Assembly (NCBI GenBank): GCA_002154345.1
Contig: MUNB01000021.1
Span: 31,029 to 95,028, forward strand
DNA: 64,000 bases
Reading direction: 5' to 3'
From: Streptomyces griseus
GTDB taxonomy: Bacteria; Actinomycetota; Actinomycetes; Streptomycetales; Streptomycetaceae
The notes beneath the pieces were generated by a model, which searched no databases, was not told the DNA's origin, and saw nothing but the letters and a program-made list of their open reading frames with translations. The translations under genes and the position numbers were made by a program. Shown one piece after another: positions 14,956 through 43,189 of this stretch (position 1 is the first letter of the stretch; every line of letters begins with the position of its first letter).

Positions 14956-15030
14956 GCTCCTCAGCACGTGTTGACGGCCCCGGTGCGGCGTGGGCGCCGC
15001 CCCCGTCCTCAGGGCAGAGGCGGTGCCCGG

Positions 15031-15068
15031 GGCCGTGCCCGGCCGTCGTGAGGTGGCCGGGCACGGCC
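15031..15068. terminator. Strong hairpin between convergent genes
   Basis: A perfect 14-bp inverted repeat (GGCCGTGCCCGGCC and its complement) encloses a 10-nt loop. It sits between the stops of meaB and the minus-strand gene ending at 15076. There is no T-run, as is usual in streptomycetes. It could end transcription from both sides. Confidence 0.7.
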
Positions 15069-15075
15069 GAGAGTG

Positions 15076-15495: not shown

Positions 15496-15505
15496 GTGCT
15501 GTCCC

Positions 15506-18500: not shown

Positions 18501-20851
18501 CCGAGGGCGTCGGTCTCCGAGGCGAGGCGTCCGCCGGTGTCGTAGGTCCGGGTGACGGACTTGCCCGTCGCGTCGGTCGTCCGGGTCAGGTTCCCGGCGT
18601 CGTCGTAGACGTAGGCGGTGGTGTGGCCCGCCGGGTCCTTCGCCGAAGTCAACTGCTCGGCGCCGTTGTACTCGTAGCGTGTGGTGCGGCCCAGCGGGTC
18701 GGTCGCCGAGCTGAGCAGCCCGCGCCCGTCGTAGGCGTACGCCGTGGTGTAAGCGGCCGGGGTGGCGCCTGTGACGTTGCCGCGCGGGTCCGTCCGGGAC
18801 ACAACCCGCCCGGCCGCGTCGTACGTGAACGTCGTCCTGTTGCCCAGAGGGGTGGTGACCGAGGTTCGGTTGCCCGCCGCGTCGTAGCCGTAGGCCGTGG
18901 TCTTCCCGCGCGGGGTGGTGACGGTCGCGAGGGCGCCGAGTGCGGTGTGGGTGTAGTGGGTGACGCCGCCCATCGGGTCCGTCGTGGACTTCAGCTGGTT
19001 CGACGCGTTGTACGCGTACGCCGTCCGGTTGCGGCGGCCGTCGGTATGGCCGGTGACGTTGCCCGCGCTGTCGTAGGTCCAGCTCTCCTCGTATCCGAGG
19101 GCCGACGGGGCCTTCCGGGTGAGCATCCGGCCGGCGCTGTCGTACGTCATTGTCGTGGTGTTGCCGCGCTGGTCGGTGATGGCGACGGGCCGCAGCTCGC
19201 GGTCGTAGTCGTAGGTGACGCTCTTGCCGTAGGGATCGATGGAAGACATCAGGACGTTACCGGAGTAGACGTCCGTCCAGACGCCCCCGTCGGGGGCCGT
19301 GGTGTGCGACTCGCGGCTGCCGTCCCGGGTGAAGGTGGTGATCTTGCCCCTCTGGTCGGTCTGGGACGTGATCCGGCCGGAGGCGTCGTAGACGTTGCGG
19401 ACCGTCCCGCCTGCAGGGTCGGTGTACGAGGACAGCCGCTTCCCGGAGTCGTACGCGTACGAGGAGACCTTGCCCGCCGGGTCCGTCACCGAGGTCAGCA
19501 GACCGCCGGTGTAGTCGTACGTCACGGTTGTCGCGTCCGGCAGGGCCACCTTGGCCAGCAGGCCGTCGGTGCCGACGGTGAACGTGGTGGTGCGGCCGGC
19601 GGCGTCCTTGACGGAGGCGAGCCTGCCGGAGGCGTAGGTCAAGGTCAGTCCTTCTCCGGCCCGGTCGACCAGCGAGGTGAGCTGTCCGGTGCCCGAGAAG
19701 GTGTGCCGGGTGTGGTCGGGGGCGGTGAGGGTGAAGTCACTGGTGCCCCGGGCCAGTTTGACCGCTGATCCGGCCGGAGCGGTGTACGTCCCGTCGCTCT
19801 TCTGCGTGAAGACGAACGACGCCCCGTCGTCCGCGCGGTAGGTCACCTTCCCCGTCGCGACCGTCAGCTTCGAGTCGAACGGCGTCGCCCAGCCGCGCCC
19901 CAGCAGGCCGGCGGCCGCCGAGTCGGAGCGGTAGGTGCGCTCCAGGATCAGCGGTACACCGGGGCCGACCAGCGAGGCATCGGTGAGCTGCTCGAAGAAC
20001 ATCCCGGTCGCGGTGTTGACGGGGTCGGCGCGGTGGGCCTGCGCGTAGCAGGTGCAGATGCCGGCCTGCGCCCCGGGGATGTCGGGGGTGTAGAACGCCT
20101 CCACCAGTGGAGAGGTGGTGCCGCTCGGGCTCGACGTTCCGTCCGCGCCGGTGAGGAAGACCCAGGTGTAGTACTTCGTGCCGTCCTTCAGATGACCGCT
20201 CAGGTCGCTTCCGCTCCACCAGAAGCACTGGTCGGCCGGGTAGGAGTTGCCGGCCCACCACCCGTAGCACCAGACCCCGTTGTCCACGTAACGGCCCACC
20301 GGATCGTCGGTGGACCGCTTGATCTCCTGCTGGTGGACGAAGTTGCCCGCCTCGTCGACGACGTAGAACCACATGCCGGAGTACGAGGACGCCGTCGCCG
20401 TGGGCAGCTTGAGCTGACCGCCGATCGATAGCTTGCCCGGGTAGGCGATGGCCCGCGAGGTGATCCAGGTCGGGTTCCCCGTCGCCTGTGCGCCGGGTGG
20501 TGCGGCAGCTCTGTCCTCGGGTGCGGCGGACGCAGGGCCGCGCTCGGCGGGCTTCGACGGCCGGGCGTGCGGCGGGCCGGCCGGCTTCTCGATCGAGGGG
20601 GCATCGGCATAGGCCCTCAGGGGTGACAGCTCGTCCCGCTCCCGCTCCACCTGCCGGCGTCGCTCCGCGAGCGTCATCGCCTCGGGTGGCTTCGGGAGGT
20701 CGGCGGCGGTTCTCGCCGCGGGCGGTGTGACGGCCGAGGAGGCGGAGGGCGGTCGGTCCCGTGGGGAGGCCCAGGAGGGGGCGGTGCCCGAAACGGCCAG
20801 CAGCGCCAGAGTGAGGACGGTTGTGACAAGTCTTCGCGCTTGTGTGCGCAT
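15506..20851 (-). CDS. Secreted Rhs/YD-repeat polymorphic toxin
   Basis: 1781 aa. A signal peptide (about residues 1-28) and a Pro/Ala-rich linker lead to a DUF6531-type segment (DPVNTATGMFFEQ, LERTYRSD). More than 30 YD repeats follow, forming the beta-cage shell. The Rhs core then ends in PTVLTDPSGL (about 1518-1527), the conserved PxxxxDPxGL self-cleavage motif. The variable 254-residue tip carries a membrane-like stretch (IFGNGFVQGLKLPFEF) and a final domain of about 110 residues with VVAGHGWYV, GPGKSLPDYTV and VHLAICRKHC. That domain resembles the putative-adhesin Stv family, and its activity is unknown. AGGTGA precedes the ATG. Confidence 0.92.
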   Translation of the reverse strand: MRTQARRLVTTVLTLALLAVSGTAPSWASPRDRPPSASSAVTPPAARTAADLPKPPEAMTLAERRRQVERERDELSPLRAYADAPSIEKPAGPPHARPSKPAERGPASAAPEDRAAAPPGAQATGNPTWITSRAIAYPGKLSIGGQLKLPTATASSYSGMWFYVVDEAGNFVHQQEIKRSTDDPVGRYVDNGVWCYGWWAGNSYPADQCFWWSGSDLSGHLKDGTKYYTWVFLTGADGTSSPSGTTSPLVEAFYTPDIPGAQAGICTCYAQAHRADPVNTATGMFFEQLTDASLVGPGVPLILERTYRSDSAAAGLLGRGWATPFDSKLTVATGKVTYRADDGASFVFTQKSDGTYTAPAGSAVKLARGTSDFTLTAPDHTRHTFSGTGQLTSLVDRAGEGLTLTYASGRLASVKDAAGRTTTFTVGTDGLLAKVALPDATTVTYDYTGGLLTSVTDPAGKVSSYAYDSGKRLSSYTDPAGGTVRNVYDASGRITSQTDQRGKITTFTRDGSRESHTTAPDGGVWTDVYSGNVLMSSIDPYGKSVTYDYDRELRPVAITDQRGNTTTMTYDSAGRMLTRKAPSALGYEESWTYDSAGNVTGHTDGRRNRTAYAYNASNQLKSTTDPMGGVTHYTHTALGALATVTTPRGKTTAYGYDAAGNRTSVTTPLGNRTTFTYDAAGRVVSRTDPRGNVTGATPAAYTTAYAYDGRGLLSSATDPLGRTTRYEYNGAEQLTSAKDPAGHTTAYVYDDAGNLTRTTDATGKSVTRTYDTGGRLASETDALGNKATYTYDKVGRLLTAVAPRGNAPGADPAAYTTSYGYDAAGNRTRVTDPAGKTTTTTYDAVNRALVVTDPLKHTTGYAYDANDNVTRVTDALGKAVTSAYDENNRLSSTTDQLTKTTTYAYDDDGNLLSRTSPLGNKESWTYDDDGRRATAIDPRGNAAGATPTQYATSYGYDPAGNPTTVEDPLGGKGSTTFDAVGNVTGRSDADGRRTSYGYDDLDRLTTVTAPGGAVTAYAYDTVGNLTSRTDANDHVTVYGYDDARRLTTVTDPLERVTRYAYDADSHLTGKTTPRGSTGYTFDQRGLPTKIDYSDTTPDVTFGYDDAGRMTARANATISEDFGYDAVGNLTKTRGFAYTYDAAGQILTRKYSDGNTIAYTYDPDGRTATMKADGTTTTYSWDQAGRLTGSALPNTETENRTYDRAGRLTAVTTIKAGTTITRTAQTLSAAGLPTRTDVTRAGVGTGGWDLTYDVAGRLASGCYPQPWIAGCAASRTTSYTYDEVGNRLTSTLGTTSTSYAYDAADQLTSTTTGATTTPHTYDAEGNRAKAGANTYTYDLAGRMSAASIAGSGYAYDHDATGNQVAVSKGGTVTNRTQWDPNGPLPVLATEYDSAWTAKQSYRYDPLGQPASTRNGAGAVFYYHHDSQGSPVGVTSANGAMHQRWAYDPYGTRVLGTTVGGAPASTPSYTGARYEASTGDLDLHARQYTPSTGRFDRPDPATRSLTTPYVSGYAYADNQPTVLTDPSGLTPVPGDDGNGHVDSLGEGLKIFGNGFVQGLKLPFEFVGDLHGAFTGQNGGAGAFVDKYLPVRPAYRLYRAEYMLRQQGCDALADLYGEAAEELTQQIAVTGIGGLTGWRRTAVTPELRGHDIPTHGKGVGPAAERLPGGRPDGQAVVAGHGWYVRGTGDTDMPSGTWGYFYVADGVGLRQSVGLAIEQGKKIKPTEIVGPGKSLPDYTVAPGSDLRMLSGSITVSKETLLSEILKPHMGPVHLAICRKHCDPRR

Positions 20852-21131
20852 GGTGCATCACCTGTGTGTAGATCATGAATATGTTCGAGGTGATGCTTGG
20901 TCCGAGAGCGGATCGGACTAACGCGGAACGCGGGCTACGGCTTGATCGCGACGGTGGGCCGGTCGGGCTCGGGCACAGGTGCGCTGGTGGCGCGAGAAGA
21001 GGGGTCATGCCTGATTCGTGATTGGCGTGAACACGCTCTCGGGTGAGGAACGCCGTGCGTGAACCCTCCCGGACGGGCCGGGAAACGGTGCGCAACGGTC
21101 GGGCGTCGGCGCCGCGCTCACGGGCGCTGGG

Positions 21132-27798: not shown

Positions 27799-30174
27799 GT
27801 GCGGTCGGAGGGCTACGACTACGACACCTACAGCCGGCTCGCGGGTCCGCTCACTGAGCCGGATCCGACGGGGTACCGGGTGCGGTACAAGAGCCTGCTC
27901 TCGACGGAGAAGCACCGAATAAGAGCCGTCCTGCTGATGACGCTCGCCCCGGTGCTCACGGGCATCCTGCTGCTCTACCTGGTCTGGCCCACGCACTGGA
28001 CCGAGCGGGAGAACGGCGAGCGCTGGCTGGTCGTCGCCGACACCGTGATGCTGGTGTCGATCGCTCTCATCGAGCTGTTCATGCTGGTCAACGTGGTCTC
28101 CATCGCGCACGCCACGCTCGTCGCGCGCGACCCCGTGCCGGTGACGGCCGAGCCCGGCACCCGGGTCGCCTTCCTGACCACGTACGTCCCCGGAAAAGAA
28201 CCGCTCTCCATGGTCCGCGCCACCCTCAAGGGCGCCGTGCAGCTGAACCACCCCGGTCCGCTGGACGTCTGGCTGCTCGACGAGGGCGACGACCCCGGGG
28301 CCCGGATGCTCTGCGCCGAACTGGGCGTCCACCACTTCACCCGGCGCGGGGTGCCCGAGTGGAACCGCGACAAGGGCGTCCACAAGGCGAAGACCAAGCA
28401 CGGCAACTACAACGCCTGGATCGCCCTGCACGGCGGCGACTACGACTTCTTCGCCTCCGTCGACACCGACCACGTACCGATGCCCAACTTCCTGGAACGG
28501 ATGATGGGCTACTTCCGCGACCCGGACGTCGCCTTCGTCGTCGGGCCGCAGGTCTACGGGAACTACGACTCGGCCGTCACCAAGGCCGCCGAGTCGCAGC
28601 AGTTCCTCTTCCACGCCCTCATCCAGCGCGCGGGCAACCGCTACGGCGCCCCGATGTTCGTCGGCACCAACAACGTCGTGCGCATCGCCGCACTGCGGCA
28701 GGTCGGCGGTCTGTACGACTCGATCACCGAGGACATGGCCACCGGCTTCGAGATCCACCGCCGCCGCAACCCGCGCACCGGGCACTACTGGCGCTCCGTC
28801 TACACCCCCGACGTGCTCGCCGTCGGCGAGGGCCCCGCCTCCTGGACGGACTTCTTCACCCAGCAGCTGCGCTGGTCCCGGGGCACGTACGAGACGCTGT
28901 TCAGGCAGTACGGCAAGGCGCTGTTCCGGGTGCCGCCCGGCCGGCTCCTCAGCTACACGCTGATGCTCGTCTACTACCCGATGACCGCGGTCAACTGGCT
29001 GCTCGGCGTCCTGAGCTGTGTGCTGTTCCTCTGGTTCGGGGCGTCCGGCACCCAGGTCGCCGCCTCCATCTGGCTGATGCTCTACAGCGACGCCGCCGCC
29101 CTCCAGATCGGGCTCTACCTCTGGAACCGCCGGCACAACGTCTCCCCGCACGAGCCCGAGGGCTCCGGCGGACTCGCCGGCATGGCCATGTCCGCGCTCT
29201 CCGCGCCGATCTACCTGAAGTCGCTCGGCTCGGCCGTGCTGCGCACCGACGGCCGGTTCGCCTTTCTGAGCGGCACCGCCGGCACCCATGTCCTCGACTC
29301 CGGCGCCTGGACCGTGGACCACGGCGATCACGTCCACTACTACCGGGCGGCGATCCGCGGCATCGGCCCGCTGACGACGACGGAGGCCGGTCGCATCCAC
29401 AGCGATCGGACCGTCACCGCGGTCTCGTCCCAGGACGGTGCCCGGCTGTTCGACCGCACGAAGCTGGAGGACGGCGCCGTTCCCCGCGGCAGCACGCTGG
29501 ACGGCACGGGCGCCGGAGCGGTGGTCCCGTATCAGGAGCATCTGCTGGTGGCCGGAACGGGCCCCGACAAGGGCGCCATCGAGGTGCGCGACCGCGAGGG
29601 CACACGTGTCACCGTGCTCGAGGAGCCGTGCGACCGGGCGCGCGGCGAGGCGGTCACCCGCCGGGGCGTGGTCTTCGGATGCGCCGACGGCGCGCTGCTC
29701 GTCAGCGAGGACAAGGGCACGTTCGAAGCCGAGAAGATCCCGTACGACGCGAAGCCGCCGGAGCCGGAACGGGCCGTCGACTTCCGCCACCGGCCGGGCA
29801 GCACCACGCTCGCGGCCCTCTCCGGCGACGACGCCGTCTGGGTCCTCGACGTCACCGACCGCACCTGGACACGTATCGAAACGGGCCCGGTCGTCGCCGC
29901 CAACACCGCCGGGGAGGGTTCGCCCCTGCTCGCACTCGGCAAGGACGGCGTCCTCACCGCCTACGACCTCACGACCAAGAAGGCCACCGCCCGTAAGCGC
30001 CTCCTCGCGAAGGCCGGGGTGTCCGCGGTGATCGAGGTCGACAGCGCTCGCGCGTACGTCAACGACGCCGCGGCGCGCAAGGTCCACGAGATCGACTACG
30101 CCGACCGCCTCCGGGTCGCCAGGACCTTCCCGGTCGGCATAGCCCCGACGTTCATGGTGGAGACGGGCCGATGA
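27799..30174 (+). CDS. Chimera: truncated GT2 cellulose-synthase-like enzyme fused to AztD-like propeller
   Basis: 791 aa. Residues 1-487 match streptomycete GT2 synthases: two N-terminal membrane segments (about 43-63, 78-108), then LDEGDD (Asp161), DTDH (222-225), TEDMATGFE (310-318) and QQLRW (355-359), the D,D,D,QxxRW catalytic set. Membrane segments follow at about 383-413 and 420-442. After LRTDGRF (about 487) the usual last membrane segments and cytoplasmic tail are missing. The sequence instead continues into GTHVLDSGAW, VDHGDH and an AztD-like beta-propeller that lacks its own signal peptide and first blade. GTG at 27799 has GGAGG upstream. The stop overlaps aztC (ATGA). It could be a natural fusion or an assembly join; the reading frame is intact. 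Confidence 0.8.
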   Translation: MRSEGYDYDTYSRLAGPLTEPDPTGYRVRYKSLLSTEKHRIRAVLLMTLAPVLTGILLLYLVWPTHWTERENGERWLVVADTVMLVSIALIELFMLVNVVSIAHATLVARDPVPVTAEPGTRVAFLTTYVPGKEPLSMVRATLKGAVQLNHPGPLDVWLLDEGDDPGARMLCAELGVHHFTRRGVPEWNRDKGVHKAKTKHGNYNAWIALHGGDYDFFASVDTDHVPMPNFLERMMGYFRDPDVAFVVGPQVYGNYDSAVTKAAESQQFLFHALIQRAGNRYGAPMFVGTNNVVRIAALRQVGGLYDSITEDMATGFEIHRRRNPRTGHYWRSVYTPDVLAVGEGPASWTDFFTQQLRWSRGTYETLFRQYGKALFRVPPGRLLSYTLMLVYYPMTAVNWLLGVLSCVLFLWFGASGTQVAASIWLMLYSDAAALQIGLYLWNRRHNVSPHEPEGSGGLAGMAMSALSAPIYLKSLGSAVLRTDGRFAFLSGTAGTHVLDSGAWTVDHGDHVHYYRAAIRGIGPLTTTEAGRIHSDRTVTAVSSQDGARLFDRTKLEDGAVPRGSTLDGTGAGAVVPYQEHLLVAGTGPDKGAIEVRDREGTRVTVLEEPCDRARGEAVTRRGVVFGCADGALLVSEDKGTFEAEKIPYDAKPPEPERAVDFRHRPGSTTLAALSGDDAVWVLDVTDRTWTRIETGPVVAANTAGEGSPLLALGKDGVLTAYDLTTKKATARKRLLAKAGVSAVIEVDSARAYVNDAAARKVHEIDYADRLRVARTFPVGIAPTFMVETGR

Positions 30175-31124
30175 ACTCGACCACCGCCGCTCCTCGCGGA
30201 CATCGCGCACCCGCCCGTCTCGTCCTCGCCGCCCTGGCCGGTGTGCTGCTCCTGGGAGCGGGCGGGTGTACGGAGAACGACACGGGACGCGCCTCCGTGG
30301 TCGTCACCACGAACATCCTCGGGGACATCACCCGGAACGTCGTCGGCGACGAGGCCGAGGTGACCGTGCTGATGCAGGCCGACGCCGACCCGCACTCCTT
30401 CGGCGTCTCGGCTCCGCAGGCGGCGGCCGTGGAGCGGGCCGATCTGGTCGTCCACAACGGACTCGGCCTGGAGGAGAACGTCCTGCGGCATGTGCGGGCC
30501 GCCGAGGACTCCGGCGTCTCCACCCTGGCGGTCGGGGAGGCCGTCGACCCGATCACCTACTCGGCCGGCGAATCCGCCCGCGAACCCGATCCGCACTTCT
30601 GGACCGATCCCGAACGCGTACGCAGCGCGGTGAAGGTGATCGCGCAGCACGTCGTCGAGCACGTGGACGGGGTCGACCGGTCCGTGGTCGAGAAGAACGC
30701 GTCCGCCTACGGGGCCCGGATCGCCGAACTCACCGGCTGGATGGACGAGCAGTTCGGCCGCATACCGCCCCAGCAAAGGCAGTTGGTGACCAATCACCAT
30801 GTCTTCGGCTACCTGGCCCAGCGCTTCGGGTTCCGGATCGTGGGCGCGGTGATCCCGAGCGGGACCACGCTCGCGTCGCCGAGCGCCTCCGACCTGACGT
30901 CCCTCGCCACCGCGATCAGGACATCCGGGGTCCGGGCGATCTTCGTGGACTCCTCCCAACCCGACCGTCTCGCGCAGGTGTTGAAGCGCGAGAGCGGTGT
31001 CGACGTCGATGTCGTGCCGCTGTTCTCCGAATCGCTCACCGCGAAGGGGAAGGGTGCGGCCACCTACCTGCAGATGATGCGCGCCAACACCGAGTCCATC
31101 ACCACGGGACTGACCACCGAATGA
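30171..31124 (+). CDS. aztC: Zinc ABC transporter substrate-binding lipoprotein AztC
   Basis: 317-aa cluster A-I periplasmic-type metal receptor. A hydrophobic leader ends LLLGAGGC, an imperfect lipobox that makes the mature protein a likely lipoprotein. Zinc-ligand candidates follow the AztC pattern: His in DPHSF, His in DPHFWTD, His in NHHVFGYLA and Asp in FVDSSQPDR. It would hand zinc to an AztB permease powered by AztA, neither of which is in the window. It starts inside the stop of the chimeric gene, so its translation is coupled to it. aztD follows after 40 bp. Confidence 0.88.
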   Translation: MNSTTAAPRGHRAPARLVLAALAGVLLLGAGGCTENDTGRASVVVTTNILGDITRNVVGDEAEVTVLMQADADPHSFGVSAPQAAAVERADLVVHNGLGLEENVLRHVRAAEDSGVSTLAVGEAVDPITYSAGESAREPDPHFWTDPERVRSAVKVIAQHVVEHVDGVDRSVVEKNASAYGARIAELTGWMDEQFGRIPPQQRQLVTNHHVFGYLAQRFGFRIVGAVIPSGTTLASPSASDLTSLATAIRTSGVRAIFVDSSQPDRLAQVLKRESGVDVDVVPLFSESLTAKGKGAATYLQMMRANTESITTGLTTE

Positions 31125-31164
31125 ACGCCTCGCCGCGCACCCCGCGCGACGACCGGAGAAGGAA

Positions 31165-32367
31165 ATGCATCTGATGAAGCACGCAGCACGCCCGAGGACG
31201 ACGGCCGCCGTCGCCGCCCTGATCGTGGCATCCCTGACCCTCACCGCCTGCGGCAACGACGCCGGGGACTCCGCGGCCGAGTCGACGGAGAAGAAGCCGG
31301 GTTCACCGGCCGCCCGGATCCAGGACCCGATCGTCACCACGTACGACGGAGGCCTGTACGTCCTGGACGGAGCGACACTGAAGCTCGCGAAGGACATACC
31401 GCTGGCCGGGTTCAACCGCGTCAATCCCGCAGGCAGCGAGCGCCATGTGATGGTCTCCACGGCCACCGGATTCCAGGTGCTCGACGCGGTGGGCGGAAAG
31501 CTCACCGACGTCGAGTTCGAGGGCAGCAAGCCAGGCCACGTCGTCCGCCACGCGGGCCGGACCGTTCTCTTCTCCGACGGCACCGGTGTCGTCACGGTCC
31601 TCGATCCGAAGGACCTCGGCGACACGAAGCCGAAGACCGAGACCTACACCTCCGCGGCCCCGCACCACGGTGTCGCGATCCAGCTCGCCGACGGCACCCT
31701 GGTGACCACCCTTGGCACGGAGGAGAAGCGCGTCGGCATCACCGTACTCGGCAAGGACCGCAAGGAGATCACCCGCAGCGAGGAGTGCCCCGGCGTCCAC
31801 GGGGAGGCCACCGCCCAGGGCGAGGCCGTCGTCATCGGCTGCGAGGACGGCGTTCTGATCTACAAGGACGGCGCCGTCAAGAAGGTGAAGAGCCCGACGG
31901 ACTACGGCCGGATCGGCAACCAGGCCGGTTCCGACGAGTCGCCCGTCGTCCTCGGCGACTACAAGAAGGACAAGGACGCCGAGCTGGAGCGCCCCGAGCA
32001 GGTGTCCCTCATCGACACCCGGACCGGCACGATGCGGCTGGTCGACATCGGCACGAGCTACACCTTCCGCTCCCTGGCGCGCGGCCCGCACGGGGAGGCT
32101 CTCGTCCTGGGCACCGACGGCAGCATCCACGTGATCGACCCCGACACGGGCAAGGTCACCAGGAAGATCGCCGTCCTCGACCCGTGGCAGGAGCCGCTGG
32201 ACTGGCAGCAGCCCCGCCCGGCGCTGTTCGTACGGGACCACACGGCGTACGTCTCCGACCCCTCGGGCAAGAAGCTGCTGGCCGTCGACATCGAGTCGGG
32301 CGAGCGACTGGCCTCCGCCGACCTGCCGAAGGCTCCGGACGAGCTGAGCGGCGTCAAGCAGCACTGA
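31165..32367 (+). CDS. aztD: Zinc metallochaperone AztD
   Basis: 400 aa. Signal peptide with an ideal lipobox (TLTAC) and then a beta-propeller with repeated blades such as VLDGATLKLAKDIPLAGF, GHVVRHAGRTVLFSDGTG, ECPGVHGEA and IGCEDGVLIYKDG. AztD proteins store zinc outside the membrane and transfer it to AztC. The ATG at 31165 has GGAGAAGG upstream. It is a full-length relative of the propeller fused to the glycosyltransferase two genes earlier. The unit is closed by a large hairpin. Confidence 0.87.
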   Translation: MHLMKHAARPRTTAAVAALIVASLTLTACGNDAGDSAAESTEKKPGSPAARIQDPIVTTYDGGLYVLDGATLKLAKDIPLAGFNRVNPAGSERHVMVSTATGFQVLDAVGGKLTDVEFEGSKPGHVVRHAGRTVLFSDGTGVVTVLDPKDLGDTKPKTETYTSAAPHHGVAIQLADGTLVTTLGTEEKRVGITVLGKDRKEITRSEECPGVHGEATAQGEAVVIGCEDGVLIYKDGAVKKVKSPTDYGRIGNQAGSDESPVVLGDYKKDKDAELERPEQVSLIDTRTGTMRLVDIGTSYTFRSLARGPHGEALVLGTDGSIHVIDPDTGKVTRKIAVLDPWQEPLDWQQPRPALFVRDHTAYVSDPSGKKLLAVDIESGERLASADLPKAPDELSGVKQH

Positions 32368-32370
32368 CGC

Positions 32371-32427
32371 CGAGGAGCGGGCGGGGAGCGCGGGTCCCGC
32401 GGGGTCGCGCTCCCCGCCCGCTCCTCG
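32371..32427. terminator. 22-bp perfect hairpin after aztD
   Basis: The arms at 32371-32392 and 32406-32427 are exact inverted complements, separated by 13 nt. The hairpin starts 4 bp after the aztD stop. It is very stable and has no T-run, a typical streptomycete terminator. Confidence 0.8.
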
Positions 32428-32462
32428 TGGGCGGCCCGGTCCGGCGCGCCCGGAGGCAGCAG

Positions 32463-32513
32463 CACCACGGCGGACTTAAACTGCGAGAAAAGCAGGATAT
32501 GTCCGCCTTGGTG
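32463..32513. promoter_or_regulatory. Nested inverted repeat upstream of the His-rich gene
   Basis: Outer arms 32463-32475 and 32501-32513 match at 12 of 13 positions. Inside lies a second short stem, CTGC (32481-32484) with GCAG (32492-32495), flanked by AT-rich TTAAA and GATAT. It lies 44 bp before the start at 32558. It could be a regulator site or a leader RNA structure. I do not recognise a Zur-box consensus in it. Confidence 0.5.
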
Positions 32514-32557
32514 CCTGCGCGGAACAGTCCCGCGCCCCCCGCGAAGGAGTCTGCGAG

Positions 32558-32860
32558 ATGTCCACGACCACGGCGCACCAGCCTCACCCCGCGCACCCGC
32601 ACACACACGCCCCGGGATGCGGCCACGTGGCGATCCCGCACGGCGACCACATCGACTACGCGCACGACGGGCACCTGCACCGGGTGCACGAGGACCATGC
32701 GGACGAGTGCGCGACCACGTCGCACACGGTGCACGACGGACACGAGCACCGGCACGGAACGGACTGCGGTCACGTCGCCGTACCGCACGAGGACCACGTC
32801 GACTACGTCCACGACGGACATCGGCACGCCCAGCACGGCGACCACTGGGACGACCACTGA
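32558..32860 (+). CDS. His-rich repeat protein, probable zinc binder
   Basis: 100 aa of which 27 are His. Two 24-residue repeats (21-44 and 70-93) share the pattern CGHVAxPHxDHxDYxHDGHxH. There is no signal peptide and no membrane segment. Related streptomycete proteins are sometimes labelled zinc-transporter permease, which this sequence does not support. Its position straight after aztC-aztD suggests a cytoplasmic zinc buffer or chaperone (inference). A nested inverted repeat sits upstream. Confidence 0.85.
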   Translation: MSTTTAHQPHPAHPHTHAPGCGHVAIPHGDHIDYAHDGHLHRVHEDHADECATTSHTVHDGHEHRHGTDCGHVAVPHEDHVDYVHDGHRHAQHGDHWDDH

Positions 32861-32906
32861 ACGACCTCCGCCGGAGGGCCGTCGGGCGACATCGAAGGCG
32901 GGGGCG

Positions 32907-34559
32907 GTGAATCAGGAACGTCTTCTCCGGCACTACACGGCGCTGATGAGCGCCGTGCCGCAGTCGGTCTGGGTGCTGTCCGCCGACGGGGTCATCACGC
33001 TTCTGTCGCACAGCGGCATGAAGGAGCAGCTGTGGCACCCGGACGGCGAGGCGTCGTGGATGGACGCCGTACATCCGAAGGACCGGGACTGGTTCCGGCG
33101 GGCCTGGCGCAGGACCACCGAGGAGAGGTCTCCGCTCGACACGATCGTACGGGTGCGGCTCAAGGACGCCCCCGACCGTTTCCGCCACATCAAGATCATC
33201 GCCGTGCCCGTCCTGGACGAGGCGGGTGACACCGAATGGGTCGGCACGGCCGCCGACGCCGAGGAGCACTGGCGCAATCGGATGCGGGAGAAGCTGCTGG
33301 CCCGCATGGCGGCGGTACCGGCCGCGCACGACCTGTCCGAGGCTTTCCTGACGACCGCGGCCGCCGTCGTCCCCGAACTCGCCGACGCCGTCGCCGTCTT
33401 CCATGTGCAGGGTGAGCCCGGGCCCGGTCACGGGCTCGCCGACGGCATGGCGTCCGCGGCATCGACGGAGAGCGTGGGGCTGGCGCCCGGGCTGCCGTCG
33501 CTGTACCCGCTGGACCGGGACATCCTGTGGGGCGGGGCCCCACGTCAGGTCATCGAGAGCCAGGAGGCCCGCCTGCTGACCTTCCCGGCCGGGGAGCCTC
33601 CCGAGGACGGCCTCTCGAAGGCGTCCGTACGGTGGCTGCGCAAAGCCGGTGCGACCAGCGTCGCGCTGCTTCCCGTCGTGGTGGACGGCCGGGCCGTCGC
33701 CCTGGCCACCACGACGACCTGTCGGGGGAACCCGCCGCCGGACGAGGCCGATCTGAACCTGTTGCAGGACGTCTTCCAGCAGATGAGCGGCCCGCTGCGC
33801 CGAACCATGGAGCTGCAGAGAATCCGCGACAAGGCGCTCGCCCTGCAGCAGTCCTTCCTCTCTCCCCCGTCGGCCGTCGACGGCATCTCGATCACCGCGC
33901 TCTACCATCCGGCCGACTCGGCCGCGGAGGTCGGCGGGGACTGGTACGACGCGGTCAGGCTCTCGGAGGACGCGCTCGCCCTGTCCATCGGCGACATCGC
34001 GGGCCATGACCTGGACGCGGCCGCCGCGATGGGCCGTGTCAACAGCCTGTTGCGAGGGCTCGCCTACGACAGCGGGCCGGCCGCCAGCCCGGCGGTCACC
34101 CTGAGCCGGCTCGACCACATCGTGCAGGCGCTCGACGGGCCGTCGATGGTCACGGCGGTGCACGCGGTCATCCGCCGGCTGGCCCCTCACCTCTGGCGTG
34201 TCACCCTGTCCAACGCCGGTCACCCGCCGCCCCTGCTGATCCCTCGTGACGCGCCGCCGCGCTACCTGCACGACCTCGCGGCCCCGGACCCTCCGCTGTG
34301 CGTCACCGACGGCCTGCCGCGTACCGATCTCCACACGGTCATCCGGGAGGGCGACACCCTGGTCCTCTACACCGACGGGCTGGTGGAAACACCGGGTACG
34401 GACATCGGCGACAACCTCCGGCGTCTGCGCCGGCGCACCGAAGCCCTGGTGCGGGCGGGGGTGCCCCTGGCGACACTGATCCGAAGACTCCTGCCGGCCG
34501 CCCAGAACCGGCGGGACGACATCGCCGTCATCGCCCTGCAAGCCCGTTCGGGCCAGTAG
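32907..34559 (+). CDS. PAS/GAF-SpoIIE serine phosphatase
   Basis: 550 aa. A PAS domain (about 10-115, containing QSVWVLSADGVITLLSHSG and WMDAVHPKDRDWF) is followed by a GAF-like region (about 130-290). The C-terminal PP2C/SpoIIE domain (about 320-545) has EVGGDWYDA, IGDIAGHDLDAA, LSNAGHPPPLL and VLYTDGLVE. Such proteins dephosphorylate anti-sigma-factor antagonists of the BldG/SpoIIAA type in response to a signal. GTG at 32907 has GAAGG upstream. There is no partner anti-sigma gene next to it, although bldG is 14 kb away. Confidence 0.9.
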   Translation: MNQERLLRHYTALMSAVPQSVWVLSADGVITLLSHSGMKEQLWHPDGEASWMDAVHPKDRDWFRRAWRRTTEERSPLDTIVRVRLKDAPDRFRHIKIIAVPVLDEAGDTEWVGTAADAEEHWRNRMREKLLARMAAVPAAHDLSEAFLTTAAAVVPELADAVAVFHVQGEPGPGHGLADGMASAASTESVGLAPGLPSLYPLDRDILWGGAPRQVIESQEARLLTFPAGEPPEDGLSKASVRWLRKAGATSVALLPVVVDGRAVALATTTTCRGNPPPDEADLNLLQDVFQQMSGPLRRTMELQRIRDKALALQQSFLSPPSAVDGISITALYHPADSAAEVGGDWYDAVRLSEDALALSIGDIAGHDLDAAAAMGRVNSLLRGLAYDSGPAASPAVTLSRLDHIVQALDGPSMVTAVHAVIRRLAPHLWRVTLSNAGHPPPLLIPRDAPPRYLHDLAAPDPPLCVTDGLPRTDLHTVIREGDTLVLYTDGLVETPGTDIGDNLRRLRRRTEALVRAGVPLATLIRRLLPAAQNRRDDIAVIALQARSGQ

Positions 34560-34697
34560 CCCGGCGACGGAAAGAGGTGCGGTCCGGAAGCGTCACCCCG
34601 GCCCCGGCGGCCGGTCGTGGCCCCGGCCGCCCCGCTCACGTACCCGACACCGCCCGATACCGTCGAACCAGCCGCACCTGACCGAAAGAGGCCCCGC

Positions 34698-35507
34698 ATG
34701 AGCAACCCCCAAGACCCGCAGAGCCGACTCGCCACCTCCCGCGCCCACTCCGCCCGGGTCTACGACTACATCCTGGGCGGGAAGGACCACTACCCCGTCG
34801 ACGCCGAAGCCGGCGACGCGATGAGCCGCCACTGGCCCGCCCTGCCGGTCCACATGATGGAGAACCGCCGGTTCATGCACCGCGCCGCCCGTTTCCTCGC
34901 CGAGGAGTGCGGCATCCGCCAGTTCCTCGACATCGGTACGGGGCTGCCGACCCCTCCCAACCTGCACCAGATCGTGCAGGAGGTGGCGCCGGAGTCGCAT
35001 GTGGTCTACGTGGACAACGACCCCATCGTGCTCGCGCACGCGCGGGCCCTGCTGCAGAGCTCGGCCGAGGGCGCCACCGCGTACGTGGACTCCGACATGC
35101 ACGATCCCGACGCCATCCTCGGCAGCCAGGAGTTCCAGGAGCTGATCGACCTGGACCGGCCCGTCGGCCTGATGGTGATCGGCATCATGCACTTCATCCT
35201 GCCGCCCGACGACCGGCGCCTGATCAGCAGGCTGCTGGATCCGCTGCCGTCCGGCAGCTATCTGGCCATGACCATCGGCACCGCGGACTTCGCACCGGAG
35301 GAGGTCAACCGGGTGGCGGAGGAATACCGTCAGCAAGGTATGCCTTTCGTCCTGCGTGATCTGCCGACAGCCACCTCGTTCTTCGACGGGCTGGAGTTGC
35401 AGGACCCGGGAGTCACCCAGGTGCACACCTGGCGCCCCGGTCCGGAGCAGAGCGGCGTCGACGGCCGGGACATCGCCATGTACGGCGCCGTGGCCAGGAA
35501 GCCCTGA
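34698..35507 (+). CDS. S-adenosyl-L-methionine methyltransferase (DUF574/PF04672 type)
   Basis: 269 aa. Conserved elements are SRAHSARVYDYILGGKDHY, FLDIGTGLPT (SAM motif I), VVYVDNDPIVLAHA and VGLMVIGIMHFI. This family is greatly expanded in Streptomyces and its members often accompany signalling genes. Substrates are mostly unknown. ATG at 34698 has GAAAGAGG six bases upstream. It follows the SpoIIE phosphatase gene in the same direction after 138 bp that contain a 9-bp GC hairpin (34606-34614 with 34623-34631), so it is probably separately transcribed. Confidence 0.9.
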   Translation: MSNPQDPQSRLATSRAHSARVYDYILGGKDHYPVDAEAGDAMSRHWPALPVHMMENRRFMHRAARFLAEECGIRQFLDIGTGLPTPPNLHQIVQEVAPESHVVYVDNDPIVLAHARALLQSSAEGATAYVDSDMHDPDAILGSQEFQELIDLDRPVGLMVIGIMHFILPPDDRRLISRLLDPLPSGSYLAMTIGTADFAPEEVNRVAEEYRQQGMPFVLRDLPTATSFFDGLELQDPGVTQVHTWRPGPEQSGVDGRDIAMYGAVARKP

Positions 35508-35594
35508 CGGCCGGCGTCATCGGTCCCGGGGTGCGGCCGCCCGACCGACGGGGCCCGGGGCTCCGGCCTCCTCCGGTGGGGAAGACTGAGCCCC

Positions 35595-36857
35595 ATGAAC
35601 GACATGGTTTTCACCCGCCGGAGCGGCTGGATCCCGAACGTGGTCCGCGACGGCGGTGAACTGAGGCTGATGCTGGGCGCCGGGGCCGACGCCAACCATG
35701 AGCCCCGCACCTTCACGTTCCCGATGCGGGAGGCCCATCTCGCGGTGATCCGCGAGGATCTGGGCAGACACCTGCTGTTGTGGAGCGCGGTTCTTCCGCT
35801 GTGCGACGCCGCCGGCACCCGCGGCCCACTGGACGAGGGCGCCGCCGTCGCACTGCTGGACCCGATCCTCCTCTCCTCGCCCGCCGACGTCGACGCGCTC
35901 TTCCGGCGCATCCCGTGGGACAGGGGCCGGCTCATCGCGCACGGGGCCGACATCGGTCTGCTGGAGAGCGGTGAGGTCTGCGCGGCGATGCGTACGGCGA
36001 CGGAGACGGCCGACGCGAAACGGGCCCAGGAGTACCACGCGGACCGCCGTCGCGCCGAGCGCGGAGCCGTACTCGGCCCGCTCGACGCCGCGATTCTGCG
36101 GTACACGGGCCAGTATCTGCACGGGGCGACGATTCCGAGGCGGTTGCCCGACGCCGTCGCTCCCGCGCTGCTCCCCGAGGTCATGCGGGTGATCGCCACC
36201 GCGGAGCAGGCGTCCGCCGGGATGCGGATCAGCCGCGATCCGCGACGGGGAAAGCGTGCCACGGACAAGGGCGACTGGAATCGGATGGCGGCGGCGGTCG
36301 AGGCGGACGTGCGCCGTGCGCACCCCGCGCTCGCCGATGACGCGGTGCGCACCCTGAGCTTCCTGATGTGCTCGGAGGCCGCCCATCGCTCCAGGGACAC
36401 ACCCGTGGAGGATGAGGAAGAGGCTGCCGGGGGCGGCGCCGATGCCGGCGGACGGGCGAGGAAGACGGCTCTGTCGTTCACCGACGACAAGGGCGCCGAG
36501 AGGAAGTGGCTCTCGGGCGGCCCCCGCACCGCCACCGCGGAGTTCTGGGAGTTCGTCGGCGAGCGCTCCGCCTCGGACAACGAGGTGTTCACCATCGAGG
36601 ACGAGGCGATGGGCGAAGGGATCCAGCTCCACTTCTACGCGGACTCCATCGCCCGGGTCACGACGGTGCGTGCGGGTGTGGGCGGGGCGGATCCGGAGTA
36701 CCGGGTCGAGTACAGCCTGGTCGACGGGATCCGCGGATACCGGAAGCTGGTCGGCGCGTTCGTCCGGGGTGGCTGCGCCGCGCTCGGACCGCACGGCCGC
36801 TGGATGTCGGACGTCGCCGAGTTCGAGCGCGCGCGCCGCCGCAGGAGCGGGGCCTGA
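35595..36857 (+). CDS. Conserved Streptomyces protein of unknown function
   Basis: 420-aa cytoplasmic protein beginning MNDMVFTRRSGWIPNVVRDGG. The first 270 residues are helical and acidic. A low-complexity Glu/Gly linker lies at about 272-292. The last 120 residues look beta-rich (HFYADSIARVTTV, YRVEYSLVDGIRGY). It resembles a streptomycete family I recall as DUF6357, which I cannot verify here. No catalytic motif or membrane segment. The start is supported by length conservation; no strong ribosome binding site precedes it. Confidence 0.75.
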   Translation: MNDMVFTRRSGWIPNVVRDGGELRLMLGAGADANHEPRTFTFPMREAHLAVIREDLGRHLLLWSAVLPLCDAAGTRGPLDEGAAVALLDPILLSSPADVDALFRRIPWDRGRLIAHGADIGLLESGEVCAAMRTATETADAKRAQEYHADRRRAERGAVLGPLDAAILRYTGQYLHGATIPRRLPDAVAPALLPEVMRVIATAEQASAGMRISRDPRRGKRATDKGDWNRMAAAVEADVRRAHPALADDAVRTLSFLMCSEAAHRSRDTPVEDEEEAAGGGADAGGRARKTALSFTDDKGAERKWLSGGPRTATAEFWEFVGERSASDNEVFTIEDEAMGEGIQLHFYADSIARVTTVRAGVGGADPEYRVEYSLVDGIRGYRKLVGAFVRGGCAALGPHGRWMSDVAEFERARRRRSGA

Positions 36858-36925
36858 CGTCTGCGCGGCACAGGGGAGACACGAGCACCCCTTAGCGGGG
36901 CGCCCCGAAAAGATGGAGCCTGAAC

Positions 36926-36937
36926 GCAAGCGCTTTC
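36926..36937. promoter_or_regulatory. LacI-family operator, distal copy
   Basis: GCAAGCGCTTTC, centred on AAGCGCTT, fits a LacI/GalR-type operator. It is the exact reverse complement of the 12-mer at 37007-37018. The two are separated by 69 bp, which would suit DNA looping upstream of the secreted sugar-related protein. Confidence 0.6.
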
Positions 36938-37006
36938 CCCACACCACCGGTCTTCTCGGACAGGAGTTGAGCGAACTCCACCCCATGGATTTTCCAACGA
37001 TAGACA

Positions 37007-37018
37007 GAAAGCGCTTGC
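37007..37018. promoter_or_regulatory. LacI-family operator, proximal copy
   Basis: GAAAGCGCTTGC is the inverted twin of the site at 36926. It lies 100 bp before the start of the large secreted protein. No LacI-family regulator is encoded in the window, so the repressor must be elsewhere. Confidence 0.62.
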
Positions 37019-37118
37019 CGACCCGTTGCCTTTTCCGTGGGGCCTGCCCTTCACTGTGAACGGCAGCCCGTCAGCCACTGGACCGCCGGCTGCCTTCGGC
37101 CCTCAAGGAGGAAGGCCC

Positions 37119-40088
37119 ATGCGGCGTTTGGCCGTACTCGTCTCAGCCCTGTTCCTCGTCTCCCTCACCCAGGGTCAGGCCGCGGCCCAGCCCCCCGACA
37201 TACCGCCCCAGGAACCGGGCGTGACCATGCGGGTGTTCGACGTACAGATGGCGTTGGAAGACTTCTGCACGCTCAAGCCGGGGCAGACGCCCAACGTCGA
37301 CGAGTTGAAGCCGACGATCGACTGGACCACCGCCGAGGACTTCGGGCTGAGCGGCAAGTTCGTCACCGAGGTCACCGCGTACCTGAACGTCGAGTCGGCC
37401 GGGACGTACGACTTCCGCATCACCAGCGACGACGGCTCGCGGCTGATCATCGACGGCACGCAGATCATCGACAACGGAGGCAAGCACGGCGCCCAGCCCA
37501 AGGAAGGCTCGGCCGAACTGACCGAGGGCCACCACGCGTTGCGCATCGACCACTGGGACGGCGAGTACGACCAGCGCCTCCTGCTGGAGTGGCGACCGCC
37601 CGGGTCGGACGCGTACACCGTCGTGCCCACCTCGGTGCTGAGCACCGACGCCGACGTCACCCGGGTCACCTCGCCGGGCCGCAAGCTGTGCGAGGGCATC
37701 GACGAGTCACCGGGCGACGGCCTGCCGCTGGCCGGCGTGCACCCCGACTACACGCTGACCGATCTGCGCCCCGACGGTTTCGAACCGCAGGTCACCGGCA
37801 TGGACTGGCTGCCGGACGGCCGACTGGCCGTCAGCACCTGGGGCGGCAGCAGGGAGAGCGAGCTCGGGCAGGTGTATCTGCTCGACAACGTCACCGGGAA
37901 CACCGACCCGTCGAAGGTGACCAAGAAGCTGGTCGCCGAGGACCTGCTGGAGCCGATGGGCCTCAAGTACGTCGACGGCACCCTCTACGTCTCCGAGAAG
38001 GACGGTCTGACCGCGCTGGTCGACAAGGACGGCGACGAGGTCACCGACGAGTACCGCCAGATCGCGACCTGGCCGTTCGGCGGCAACTACCACGAGTTCG
38101 CGTTCGGGCTGCTGTACGAGAAGGGGCACTTCTACGTCAGCACGGGCATCGCCATGGTGCCGGGCGGCGCGACCCAGGACCCGCAGAACGTGCCCAACCG
38201 CGGCTCCACCCTCAAGATCAACAAGAAGACCGGCAAGGTGTCGTACGTGGCCGGGGGGCTGCGCACACCGAACGGCCTCGGCTGGGGCCCGGACGGCGAG
38301 ATCTTCGCCACCGACAACCAGGGCGCCTACGTGCCGACGTCGAAGCTGGTGCGCATCAAGCAGGGCGCCTTCTACAACCACCACACCAACCCGGACGGCG
38401 TCTACGACGACCAGCCGGTGACCGAGCCCGTCCTCTGGCTGCCGCACGGCGAGATCTCCAACTCGCCGAGCAACCCGATCCTGCTGCCCGAAGGGCCCTT
38501 CGCCGGGCAGATGGTGTTCGGTGACGTGACCTACGGCGGCCTTCAGCGGGCGTACCTGGAGAAGGTCGGCGGCGAGTACCAGGGCGCGGTGTTCCGGATG
38601 ACGCAGGGCCTTGAGGCCGGGGTCAACCGGATCAGCCTCGGCCCGGACGGGGCGATCTACGCCGGCGGCATCGGTGACTCCGGGAACTGGGGCCAGGAGG
38701 GCAAGCTCAAGTTCGGCCTCCAGAAGCTCGCGCTCACCGGCGACGACGCCTTCGACATGCGTGCCATGCGGGCGGTCGACGGCGGTTTCGCGATCGAGTA
38801 CACCCAGCCGGTCTCCGAGGAGACCGCCGAGGACCTGGCGGCCAAGTACGAGGCCCAGCAGTGGCGTTATGTGGCGACCCCGAGGTACGGCGGCCCGAAG
38901 GTCGACGAGGAGACCCTCGACATCACCTCCGCGACGCTCTCCGAGGACCGCAGGACGGTGACGCTGAAGATGGACGGCCTGCGCCCCGGCCGGGTGGTGC
39001 ACGTGCAGTCCCCGCGCCCGTTCGCGGCGGAGTCCGGAGCGGAGCTGTGGAGCACCGAGGCCTGGTACAGCCTCAACACGCTGCCCGACGGGTCGAAGCC
39101 GCCGCCGGTGTACGAGGCGGAGTCCGCCTCGCTGTCCGGCGGCACCAAGTTCAACGACAACCACTCCGGCTACTCCGGCACCGGCTTCATCGACAACAAC
39201 TGGGAGCCGGGCTCCCGCACCACCTTCGCGGTGCGCGCCGACAAGAAGGGGAAGTACGACCTCGCCCTGCGGTACGCGAACGGGCAGAACTCCGACCCGG
39301 AGCCGAAGCCCCGGTCGATGACCCTGTACGTCAACGGCGAGCGCCACAAGCAGATCTGGCTGAACTCCACCGTCACCTGGAACACGTGGGCGACCCACAT
39401 CGAATCGGTGCCCCTGCGCAAGGGCGCGAACACGATCACGTACGCCTATGAGCCCGAGGACGACGGTCATGTGAACCTCGACAACCTCACCGTCACCCCG
39501 ACGAAGCGCACCACGCTCTTCGACGGCACGAACCTCGACGCCTGGGAGTCGAACGCCGGCGGTCCGGCGACGTGGCCGGTGGCGGACGGCTCCGTGGAGT
39601 CCCTCGGCGGAGACATCCGTACGAAGGAGAAGTACGGCGACTTCCGGATGCACGCCGAGTGGTACCAGCCCCACTACCCGCCGGAGGTCACCGGACAGGC
39701 CCGGGGCAACAGCGGGATCTACATCCAGGAGCGGTACGAACTCCAGATCCTGGAGTCGTTCGGGGTCGACGTACCCGCCACCAACGACGCCGGATCGATC
39801 TACCTGCGCAAGGCCCCCGACGTCAACGCCGCGACACCGTCCGGCACCTGGCAGCGCTACGACATCGAGTTCCGGGCGGCGCGCTTCGACAGCGACGGAA
39901 AGAAGGTGGAGGACGCGCGGGTGACTCTCCGGTGGAACGGCAAGCTGGTGCACAGAGACGTCGCCATCGCCGGACCGACCGGGGCGGGCCGCCCGGAGGG
40001 ACCCGCCCCGGGCCACATCAAGTTGCAGGACCACGGGGACCCCGGTGAGAACCCGAGGTTCCGCAACATCTGGATCGAACGGCTCTGA
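37119..40088 (+). CDS. Large secreted multidomain carbohydrate-related protein (PA14, propeller, CBM, DUF1080)
   Basis: 989 aa. A signal peptide (to about 24, VSLTQGQAAAQ) leads to a PA14-like domain (about 35-190; TSDDGSRLIIDGTQIIDN) and a sugar-dehydrogenase-like six-bladed propeller (about 220-570; TGMDWLPDGRLAVSTWGG, GLRTPNGLGWGPDGEIF). A beta-linker, a CBM6/35 domain (about 665-800; YEAESASLSGG) and a DUF1080/PF06439 jelly roll (about 805-989; FDGTNLDAWES, ARGNSGIYIQERYE) follow. DUF1080 domains cleave or bind 3-keto-disaccharides and glucans. The start has an excellent AAGGAGGAAGG. The paired LacI-type operators predict sugar induction. Confidence 0.88.
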   Translation: MRRLAVLVSALFLVSLTQGQAAAQPPDIPPQEPGVTMRVFDVQMALEDFCTLKPGQTPNVDELKPTIDWTTAEDFGLSGKFVTEVTAYLNVESAGTYDFRITSDDGSRLIIDGTQIIDNGGKHGAQPKEGSAELTEGHHALRIDHWDGEYDQRLLLEWRPPGSDAYTVVPTSVLSTDADVTRVTSPGRKLCEGIDESPGDGLPLAGVHPDYTLTDLRPDGFEPQVTGMDWLPDGRLAVSTWGGSRESELGQVYLLDNVTGNTDPSKVTKKLVAEDLLEPMGLKYVDGTLYVSEKDGLTALVDKDGDEVTDEYRQIATWPFGGNYHEFAFGLLYEKGHFYVSTGIAMVPGGATQDPQNVPNRGSTLKINKKTGKVSYVAGGLRTPNGLGWGPDGEIFATDNQGAYVPTSKLVRIKQGAFYNHHTNPDGVYDDQPVTEPVLWLPHGEISNSPSNPILLPEGPFAGQMVFGDVTYGGLQRAYLEKVGGEYQGAVFRMTQGLEAGVNRISLGPDGAIYAGGIGDSGNWGQEGKLKFGLQKLALTGDDAFDMRAMRAVDGGFAIEYTQPVSEETAEDLAAKYEAQQWRYVATPRYGGPKVDEETLDITSATLSEDRRTVTLKMDGLRPGRVVHVQSPRPFAAESGAELWSTEAWYSLNTLPDGSKPPPVYEAESASLSGGTKFNDNHSGYSGTGFIDNNWEPGSRTTFAVRADKKGKYDLALRYANGQNSDPEPKPRSMTLYVNGERHKQIWLNSTVTWNTWATHIESVPLRKGANTITYAYEPEDDGHVNLDNLTVTPTKRTTLFDGTNLDAWESNAGGPATWPVADGSVESLGGDIRTKEKYGDFRMHAEWYQPHYPPEVTGQARGNSGIYIQERYELQILESFGVDVPATNDAGSIYLRKAPDVNAATPSGTWQRYDIEFRAARFDSDGKKVEDARVTLRWNGKLVHRDVAIAGPTGAGRPEGPAPGHIKLQDHGDPGENPRFRNIWIERL

Positions 40089-40112
40089 CACCCCGCGTTC
40101 CCACGGTGCGCC

Positions 40113-41939: not shown

Positions 41940-43021
41940 GCGGTCTTCTCCCCTATCCAGCGGGCCAGTTCGAGTGGGCTGAGGGCCGCCACGGGCATCC
42001 CGGCGGCCACGAGCTGTCCGGCGACGCCCGTCGAGTAGCGGGGCCGGCCGGCGTCGTCGAGGCTCGCGCACCCGAGGACATGGCAACCGGTGTTCACCAG
42101 AGCCCGGACCTCGGCCAGCAGTCCGGCGAGCGGCGCTCCCTCCTCGAAGTCGCTGATGACGACGACGAGAGTGCGGGAGGGCACCTCGATCAGCCCGCGG
42201 GCGTGCCGGAGCCCGGCGGCGATGTGCGTGCCGCCGCCCACGCTCACCTCCAGCAGGAGGGAGAGGGGGTCGCGCACATGCCCGGTGAGGTCGACGACCT
42301 CCGTGGAGAACGCCAGGAAATGGGTGCTCAGGGTCGGCACCCCGGCGAGCACGGAGGCGGTCAACGCGGACCAGATCGTGGAGGCCTCCATGGATCCGGA
42401 GACGTCGGTGACCAGGATCAGGCGCCAGTCGGCCGACCTGCGGGCGCGACTGCGGAAGACGGGCTTCTCGGGGATCACCCGGATCGTGCCGTCGGTGGTC
42501 CGGCGGGCGGTGGCCAGATTGGCGCGCAGGGTGCGCGGCAGATCGAGCCGGCCTCCGGGGCGGCGGGTCGGCCGGGCCGTCGTCGCGCCGGTCAGCGCGG
42601 GCCGCAGCCGGGTGGCGAGTTGTCGGGTCAGTTCGTCGACGAGACGGCGCACCAGCGGGCGGAGCGCCGCGAGGCGGGCCTCGGGAAGGCCGCCGGCGTA
42701 CTGCAGGATCGTCCGGAGCAGTTCCACCGAAGGGGTCGCGGCGGCGGGGTCGAGTTCGGCCAGGACGTCCTGCCGCCCGGTCACGGCCGCTGCGGCCAGG
42801 ACCTCTTCACGGACGCCGGGGCCGAACAGGGCGGCCAGTTCCTCGGACCACTCGCGGACACCGGGGAACGCCGGCTCCCGGCCGCCGCCCGCTCCGGAGC
42901 CGTCCTGCCCGGGGAGGCCGCCGCGGGAGCCCTCGCCGTGTCCCGCGCCGTAGAGCTCGTCCAGCGCGGTCGCCAGCCGGGCGGCACCGGACGGCAGCCG
43001 CTCGGCGCTCCGGCCGAGCAC
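41936..43021 (-). CDS. VWA-domain protein with doubtful N-terminus
   Basis: 361 aa from GTG 43021. The C-terminal von Willebrand A domain has the MIDAS motif DVSGSMEAS, followed by GGGTHIAAGL and VVISDFEEGAPL. The open frame continues upstream of 43021 for 44 codons to an in-frame TAA (43154-43156). It encodes RWRLVLGR-like conserved residues and an Ala-Pro repeat, but contains no ATG, GTG or TTG. Either GTG 43021 is used and some conserved residues are lost, CTG at 43114 is used, or the 5' end was removed by rearrangement. The MoxR-type ATPase that normally accompanies this family is absent. Confidence 0.8.
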   Translation of the reverse strand: MLGRSAERLPSGAARLATALDELYGAGHGEGSRGGLPGQDGSGAGGGREPAFPGVREWSEELAALFGPGVREEVLAAAAVTGRQDVLAELDPAAATPSVELLRTILQYAGGLPEARLAALRPLVRRLVDELTRQLATRLRPALTGATTARPTRRPGGRLDLPRTLRANLATARRTTDGTIRVIPEKPVFRSRARRSADWRLILVTDVSGSMEASTIWSALTASVLAGVPTLSTHFLAFSTEVVDLTGHVRDPLSLLLEVSVGGGTHIAAGLRHARGLIEVPSRTLVVVISDFEEGAPLAGLLAEVRALVNTGCHVLGCASLDDAGRPRYSTGVAGQLVAAGMPVAALSPLELARWIGEKTA

Positions 43022-43070
43022 GAGCCGCCAGCGGTCGGCGGGCGCGAGAGTCCGGGCAGGAGCCGGGGCC

Positions 43071-43110: not shown

Positions 43111-43189
43111 GCAGGGCGCGGGCAAGGGCAAGGGCGTTGGTGTGGGCCGGGCCTTAGGCAGGGGCGTGGGCCGAGGCAGGAGCCGAGGC

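Follow-up and report, generated by a model that had tools for sequence, protein, structure and literature searches.

The window analyzed here comprises 64,000 bases of a Streptomyces griseus draft genome (bases 31029–95028 of the 95,520-base contig C124; the draft holds 7.82 Mb in 846 contigs) and raises the question of whether a single open frame, leading from a glycosyltransferase family 2 (GT2) glucan-synthase core into a protein resembling the zinc metallochaperone AztD, is a gene at all. The frame runs on the plus strand from 27799 to 30174, its 3′ end overlapping the start of aztC at 30171, and is open across the join for 791 codons—803 if translation starts at a GTG further upstream, at 27763—as the preliminary description of this DNA had read it. 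That description left two options: a deletion that made a new chimeric enzyme or a join made in assembly. The second is favored here, and the frame is probably an artefact of a chimeric contig and not a real gene; of the first, the functional chimera is not supported, as parts needed by the synthase are gone. If annotated unchanged, it would be recorded in databases as a novel domain architecture. The features discussed in the following are collected in Table 1.

Table 1. Features around the two joins in the window (positions are window bases; a dot stands for no strand)
Feature	Position	Strand	Basis
CslA-like GT2 cellulose-synthase gene, 5′ part (residues 1–487)	27799–29259	+	Profile matches and homology to relatives
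22-base word CTGCGCACCGACGGCCGGTTCG holding the join	29239–29260	+	Word comparison of the parent genes
AztD-like lipoprotein gene, 3′ part (304 aa plus stop)	29260–30174	+	Profile match and named copies
aztC, zinc ABC transporter substrate-binding protein, intact	30171–31124	+	NF040870, 394.5 bits (cut-off 350)
aztD, zinc metallochaperone, intact	31165–32367	+	NF038015, 502.6 bits (cut-off 400)
Block with pieces from several chromosome places in relatives, none next to the synthase; fragment probably misplaced	29261–43063	.	Matches in relatives
Second join, a low-complexity region containing (GGAGCT)n; cut minus-strand gene on one side, Tad-domain core gene on the other	43059–43222	.	
Core DNA, about 1.3 Mb from the synthase locus in G066	43223–64000	.	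Alignment to G066

Both halves of the frame are recognizable by profile. Pfam GT2/cellulose-synthase models match residues 137–422 above cut-off, and two NCBIfam models match below theirs: CelA on residues 48–393 (105.3 bits; cut-off 699.1) and AztD on residues 484–770 (model positions 36–336; 43.7 bits; cut-off 400). The synthase half features DTD (222), TED (310), and QQLRW (355), corresponding to the DxD, TED, and QxxRW motifs of GT2 enzymes, and the AztD-like half keeps an HGDH motif. The identities of the two domains and the position of the join had been given correctly to within one residue. The N-terminal half resembles CslA of Streptomyces lividans, which is described as forming a complex with GlxA (PMC11022532): the motifs of the GT2 core are the same, and in relatives the gene is followed by one with a GlxA domain. 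The fusion differs by lacking the FxVTxK gating loop, which the same source lists as putative for CslA (PMC11022532), the last membrane segments, the tail, and GlxA. The true cslA may be either this locus or a paralogue on contig C66, and the term CslA-like is used for the locus in the window.

DNA homology to the synthases of relatives ends at window base 29260 in nine of ten loci and at 29259 in the tenth, that is, after F487. In all eight close relatives examined, the synthase extends beyond residue 487 (the match reaches query residue 602 in six of them, 562 in G005, and 578 in G178). A GlxA match lies behind it in each; this consists of two matched pieces in G005 and is named as a GlxA domain by Pfam in G066. 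The intact synthase frame of G066 has 602 residues from the corresponding start, which is 115 more beyond residue 487; its FVVTPK motif, located at residue 487, aligns with RFAVTAK in BcsA (4hg6 and 5ej1). The fusion keeps F487 of this gating loop and has lost the rest. As judged by crude hydropathy, it has no membrane segment after the join, compared with 506–524 and 535–553 in the intact gene, and the window carries no GlxA match at E 1e-20. The locus lacks the synthase tail and the downstream GlxA gene, in line with the tail and the kelch/galactose-oxidase gene described before as missing. The earlier wording of a complete glycosyltransferase core applies to the DTD, TED, and QQLRW motifs; functionally, the core is incomplete by the absence of the FxVTxK motif.

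These losses bear on the possibility of a functional chimera, in which a membrane glucan synthase would carry a zinc-binding propeller for sensing or supplying metal. The open frame, with the catalytic motifs and the HGDH motif in place, speaks for such an enzyme; with the gating loop and both predicted membrane segments behind it lost, and the N-terminal strands of the propeller and the partner GlxA missing, it is highly improbable. The gating loop of BcsA is cytoplasmic, and the propeller of the fusion would therefore start on the cytoplasmic side. Hydropathy agrees with this for the fusion, with four segments ahead of the join; in the intact relative, however, the same method gives three overlapping windows at 390–438, which makes the agreement weak support. 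AztD homologues, in contrast, are described as periplasmic or extracellular lipoproteins (PMC6689063).

Among the matches listed, relatives provide no second instance of the fusion. A search with the whole fusion matches 370 of 392 genus genomes; among the matches listed, residues 1–791 are covered by the own genome only, and the others end at 488–541. Likewise, a 1-kb query over the join is spanned by the own genome only among the matches listed from 395 relatives—a set that overlaps with the 392—the remaining matches being one-sided, such as that of G029, which lies on the AztD-like side only. None of 18 plasmid records covers 80% of this junction query, and a match to the synthase half occurs in none of the best 80 of 236 loci of the AztD-like gene. 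A conserved GT2–AztD fusion family was discarded on these grounds, and with it the wide conservation that the preliminary description had named as speaking against novelty. In the literature searched, AztD and glycosyltransferase occur together in one paper, on a metal-binding proteome of Orientia, the description of which mentions no such fusion.

The AztD-like half is, by its sequence, a divergent AztD paralogue: it stays below the AztD cut-off, which the separate aztD downstream reaches (Table 1). With AztD of Paracoccus denitrificans and Citrobacter koseri (PMC6689063), it has in common the match to the AztD model, the HGDH motif, and the position beside aztC and aztD; it differs by its low score and by lacking the lipoprotein signal and the N-terminal strands. 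Zinc site 2 of AztD is described as being built on the N- and C-terminal strands together with a hairpin of blade 2 (PMC6689063). A match to this half is present in seven of 14 genomes (the own genome and six of 13 close ones); the best matches in these six are 56–59% identical. The closest named copies belong to Streptomyces mutomycini, Streptomyces sp. HB132, and Streptomyces clavifer and are 70–72% identical. Pfam gives no match to the S. mutomycini copy at E 0.01, and a PDB sequence search with this copy yields only weak YncE and glucose dehydrogenase matches. The stretch WTVDHGDHxHxY is invariant in 38 aligned copies, which suggests metal binding.

Intact copies of this gene, denoted aztD′ in the following, occupy a constant place. 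In the best 80 of 236 loci, aztC lies at most 300 bases downstream in 79, an aztD match follows downstream in 78, and a lipobox-like motif—searched with a loose pattern—is found upstream in the same frame in 77; aztD′–aztC–aztD is thus a conserved zinc operon with a lipoprotein-like gene at its head. The copy in the window has lost this head. In the fusion, the export or lipoprotein signal is missing and synthase sequence stands in its place, so that the earlier reading of an AztD-like half without signal and start is correct: both the lipobox-like motif and the N-terminal strands of the intact copies are absent. As an observation on the operon itself, it carries two AztD-type proteins, namely the lipoprotein-like paralogue at the head and AztD (29260–32367; loci L081–L160). 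Shortly behind aztD lies a very histidine-rich frame of 100 aa (32558–32857) that matches neither Pfam nor NCBIfam models at E 0.1 and possibly encodes a zinc-storage or zinc-buffer protein.

The join itself lies on a word that both parent genes can carry. CTGCGCACCGACGGCCGGTTCG is present in the synthase gene of four of six relatives (G066, G347, G203, and G115, whereas G126 and G287 lack an exact copy) and in aztD′ of two of 15 loci, those of S. mutomycini, with 22 bases in common with G066, and S. clavifer, with 23. In the other 13 aztD′ loci, the longest word in common with G066 near the join has at most 16 bases, and in two of them there is none of at least 8. The 22-mer is the longest same-strand word common to the G066 synthase gene and S. 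mutomycini aztD′, the longest on the opposite strand being 10 bases, and the own genome carries it once within two mismatches. Because it encodes LRTDGRF in the same frame in both parent genes, the frame stays open across the join; an open frame is weak evidence of a fusion when the parents share a short in-frame word. At this word, the 5′ part of an ordinary cslA-like gene would have been attached to the 3′ part of an aztD-like gene unrelated to it. In the true genome, glxA would most likely follow an undamaged cslA-like gene, and the aztD′–aztC–aztD operon would be complete at a separate place.

Chimeric contigs at short shared words occur in draft assemblies, and real deletions, too, arise between direct repeats as short as this. 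The same word is hence open to a second reading: a real rearrangement may have landed the zinc operon behind the synthase, and a deletion between the 22-base copies would then have taken the synthase tail, glxA, and the start of aztD′. In addition to the word carried by both parents, this reading draws on the absence of both reciprocal pieces from the assembly, on the intact aztD directly downstream, and on a paralogous CslA/GlxA pair on contig C66 (66% and 55% protein identity for synthase and GlxA, respectively; 71–78% DNA identity). Its product would be a non-functional remnant, tolerated given the paralogues on C66 and the intact AztD. Set against the evidence of the following paragraphs, a real deletion is unlikely.

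The surroundings of the join argue for displaced DNA. Upstream of it, C124 tracks G066 from 5.98 to 6.031 Mb with few interruptions. The block behind it consists of pieces with counterparts at different places of the relatives' chromosomes: the zinc operon (68–81% DNA identity; about 0.315 Mb in G347); a SpoIIE/PP2C-domain gene and a methyltransferase gene (79–86%; 7.82 Mb in G066); a DUF6357 gene (85–87%; 8.21 Mb in G066, 6.96 Mb in G005, and 3.03 Mb in G347); a PA14/CBM35/3-keto-disaccharide-hydrolase gene (92–94%; 2.07 Mb in G005); and a minus-strand gene at the block end (89–93%; 0.716 Mb in G347 and 7.72 Mb in G066). Several of these counterparts, not all, lie near chromosome ends. From 43.22 kb on, C124 tracks G066 again, now from 4.719 Mb, so that in G066 coordinates it leaps from about 6.031 Mb to this position. 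Since the orientation is unchanged and the jump goes backward, no single inversion yields this order, and a simple inversion around the origin was rejected on the same grounds. A contaminant contig was rejected as well: the pieces at 37.0–40.1 kb and 40.1–43.06 kb are 89–94% identical to close relatives, which places the block within the species group.

The far end of the block is a second irregular join. Of the minus-strand gene, residues 965–1330 of the 1330-residue open frame of G203 (counted stop to stop) remain, i.e., the last 366, with 97% identity, and the cut sits at a (GGAGCT)n tract (43059–43110). The Tad-domain core gene beyond stands without its upstream neighbors; in G066, a DUF4244 frame precedes it, within the stretch that matches contig C340. 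The start of the Tad-domain gene is of low complexity and variable in three relatives, and the frame in the window runs back into the block, so that the gene may be whole. Two truncated genes at this place can therefore not be claimed, the minus-strand gene alone being clearly cut. The second join is a probable false join. For the remaining pieces of the block, the matches in relatives correspond roughly to complete frames, and the block itself may be real. For a real deletion, this arrangement means that several changes are needed: a transposed block, a 1.3 Mb jump from core to core, and a second break within a gene at low-complexity DNA. Two false joins, in contrast, would account for C124, one at the 22-mer and one at the low-complexity end of the block.

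False joins were looked for in contig C124. Upstream of the synthase, about 6.1 kb (14990–21130) are missing from close relatives at an otherwise conserved place; the stretch contains a plus-strand frame of 1424 aa without a Pfam match at E 1e-5. A third false join was considered for this insertion at 15–21 kb and dismissed, as one edge lies just past a frame end and the longest repeat from edge to edge has 10 bases.

DNA found next to both join sites in relatives is present in the assembly at free contig ends. C557 carries the DNA that, in relatives, lies behind the synthase beyond the missing ∼4.66 kb, and it ends there at base 23045. It matches downstream of the synthase–glxA locus in seven of eight relatives; in G178, where no match is found, the contig extends only ∼0.9 kb past that point. 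The last 120 bases of C557 (L080) contain a 31-base fold-back, an inverted copy of nearby sequence that is missing in G066 as judged by eye and looks like a library or read artefact. C340, in turn, corresponds to the DNA preceding the Tad-domain gene in relatives, with its first base ∼630 bp before the second join. It adjoins the Tad segment in three of three relatives, tracks G347 over the first 10.4 of its 12.8 kb—the edge of the G347 stretch compared—and tracks G066 for 2.5 kb only. Both core adjacencies are thus free contig ends here. C124 measures 95.5 kb, compared with a mean of ∼9.2 kb for the 846 contigs. The order kept by relatives on either side and the free ends speak against a real deletion. 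Together with the 22-base shared word and the second odd join of the same block, the free ends lead us to favor the assembly option, with the joining having happened, we infer, in the library or the assembler and not in the cell. Gene order in relatives, shared words, and free contig ends make an artefact likely even without reads.

Selection on the synthase half points in the same direction. Its dN/dS is 0.045–0.10 against six relatives (a seventh, G287, yielded no comparison), compared with 0.05–0.13 in nine pairs of intact copies. The half shows no relaxed selection, and since it behaves like intact copies, any real deletion would be recent. If the join is real, the most likely outcome would be two damaged genes and no new enzyme, the product being predicted to be inactive in both roles. 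That a GT2 core with a cytosolic zinc-binding propeller is made and active behind a real join, for instance, as a zinc-responsive non-processive glucosyltransferase, is extremely improbable.

Some observations stand against the chimeric contig. There is no run of N at the join, a clear cut at the second join is seen in the minus-strand gene alone, and C340 leaves the G066 order after 2.5 kb. In addition, the case agrees with known chimeric draft contigs in the join on a short shared word, the second join at low-complexity DNA, and the free contig ends, but differs in that the lost pieces are not recovered elsewhere in the assembly. The search of the rest of the genome that had been proposed for them returned the paralogous pair on C66 and none of the lost pieces: for the synthase tail and glxA, the own assembly gives chiefly this paralogue and not the originals, with some contigs read as N, and for the N-terminus of aztD′, queried with that of S. 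mutomycini, it gives nothing convincing (best E 0.29). A true deletion removes these pieces too. A fragmented draft may leave pieces unassembled, and some contigs read as N; their absence is therefore weak evidence.

Contig ends of the draft overlap more often than internal positions. Sixty-six ends were tested against a pool of 0.46 Mb, of which 10 read as N; 12 of the 56 readable ends share at least 15 end bases with another place, compared with none of 48 readable internal controls (three further controls read as N), where the longest overlap has 14 bases. In four ends, the overlap is exactly 21 bases, and these include two inverted repeats and one second copy in the same contig. An assembler k-mer size was sought in these overlaps and given up, as contigs tend to end at repeats and no k follows. 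At its right end (L187), contig C9 runs out in sequence resembling a transposase-library adaptor with errors; this end is another sign of imperfect read trimming.
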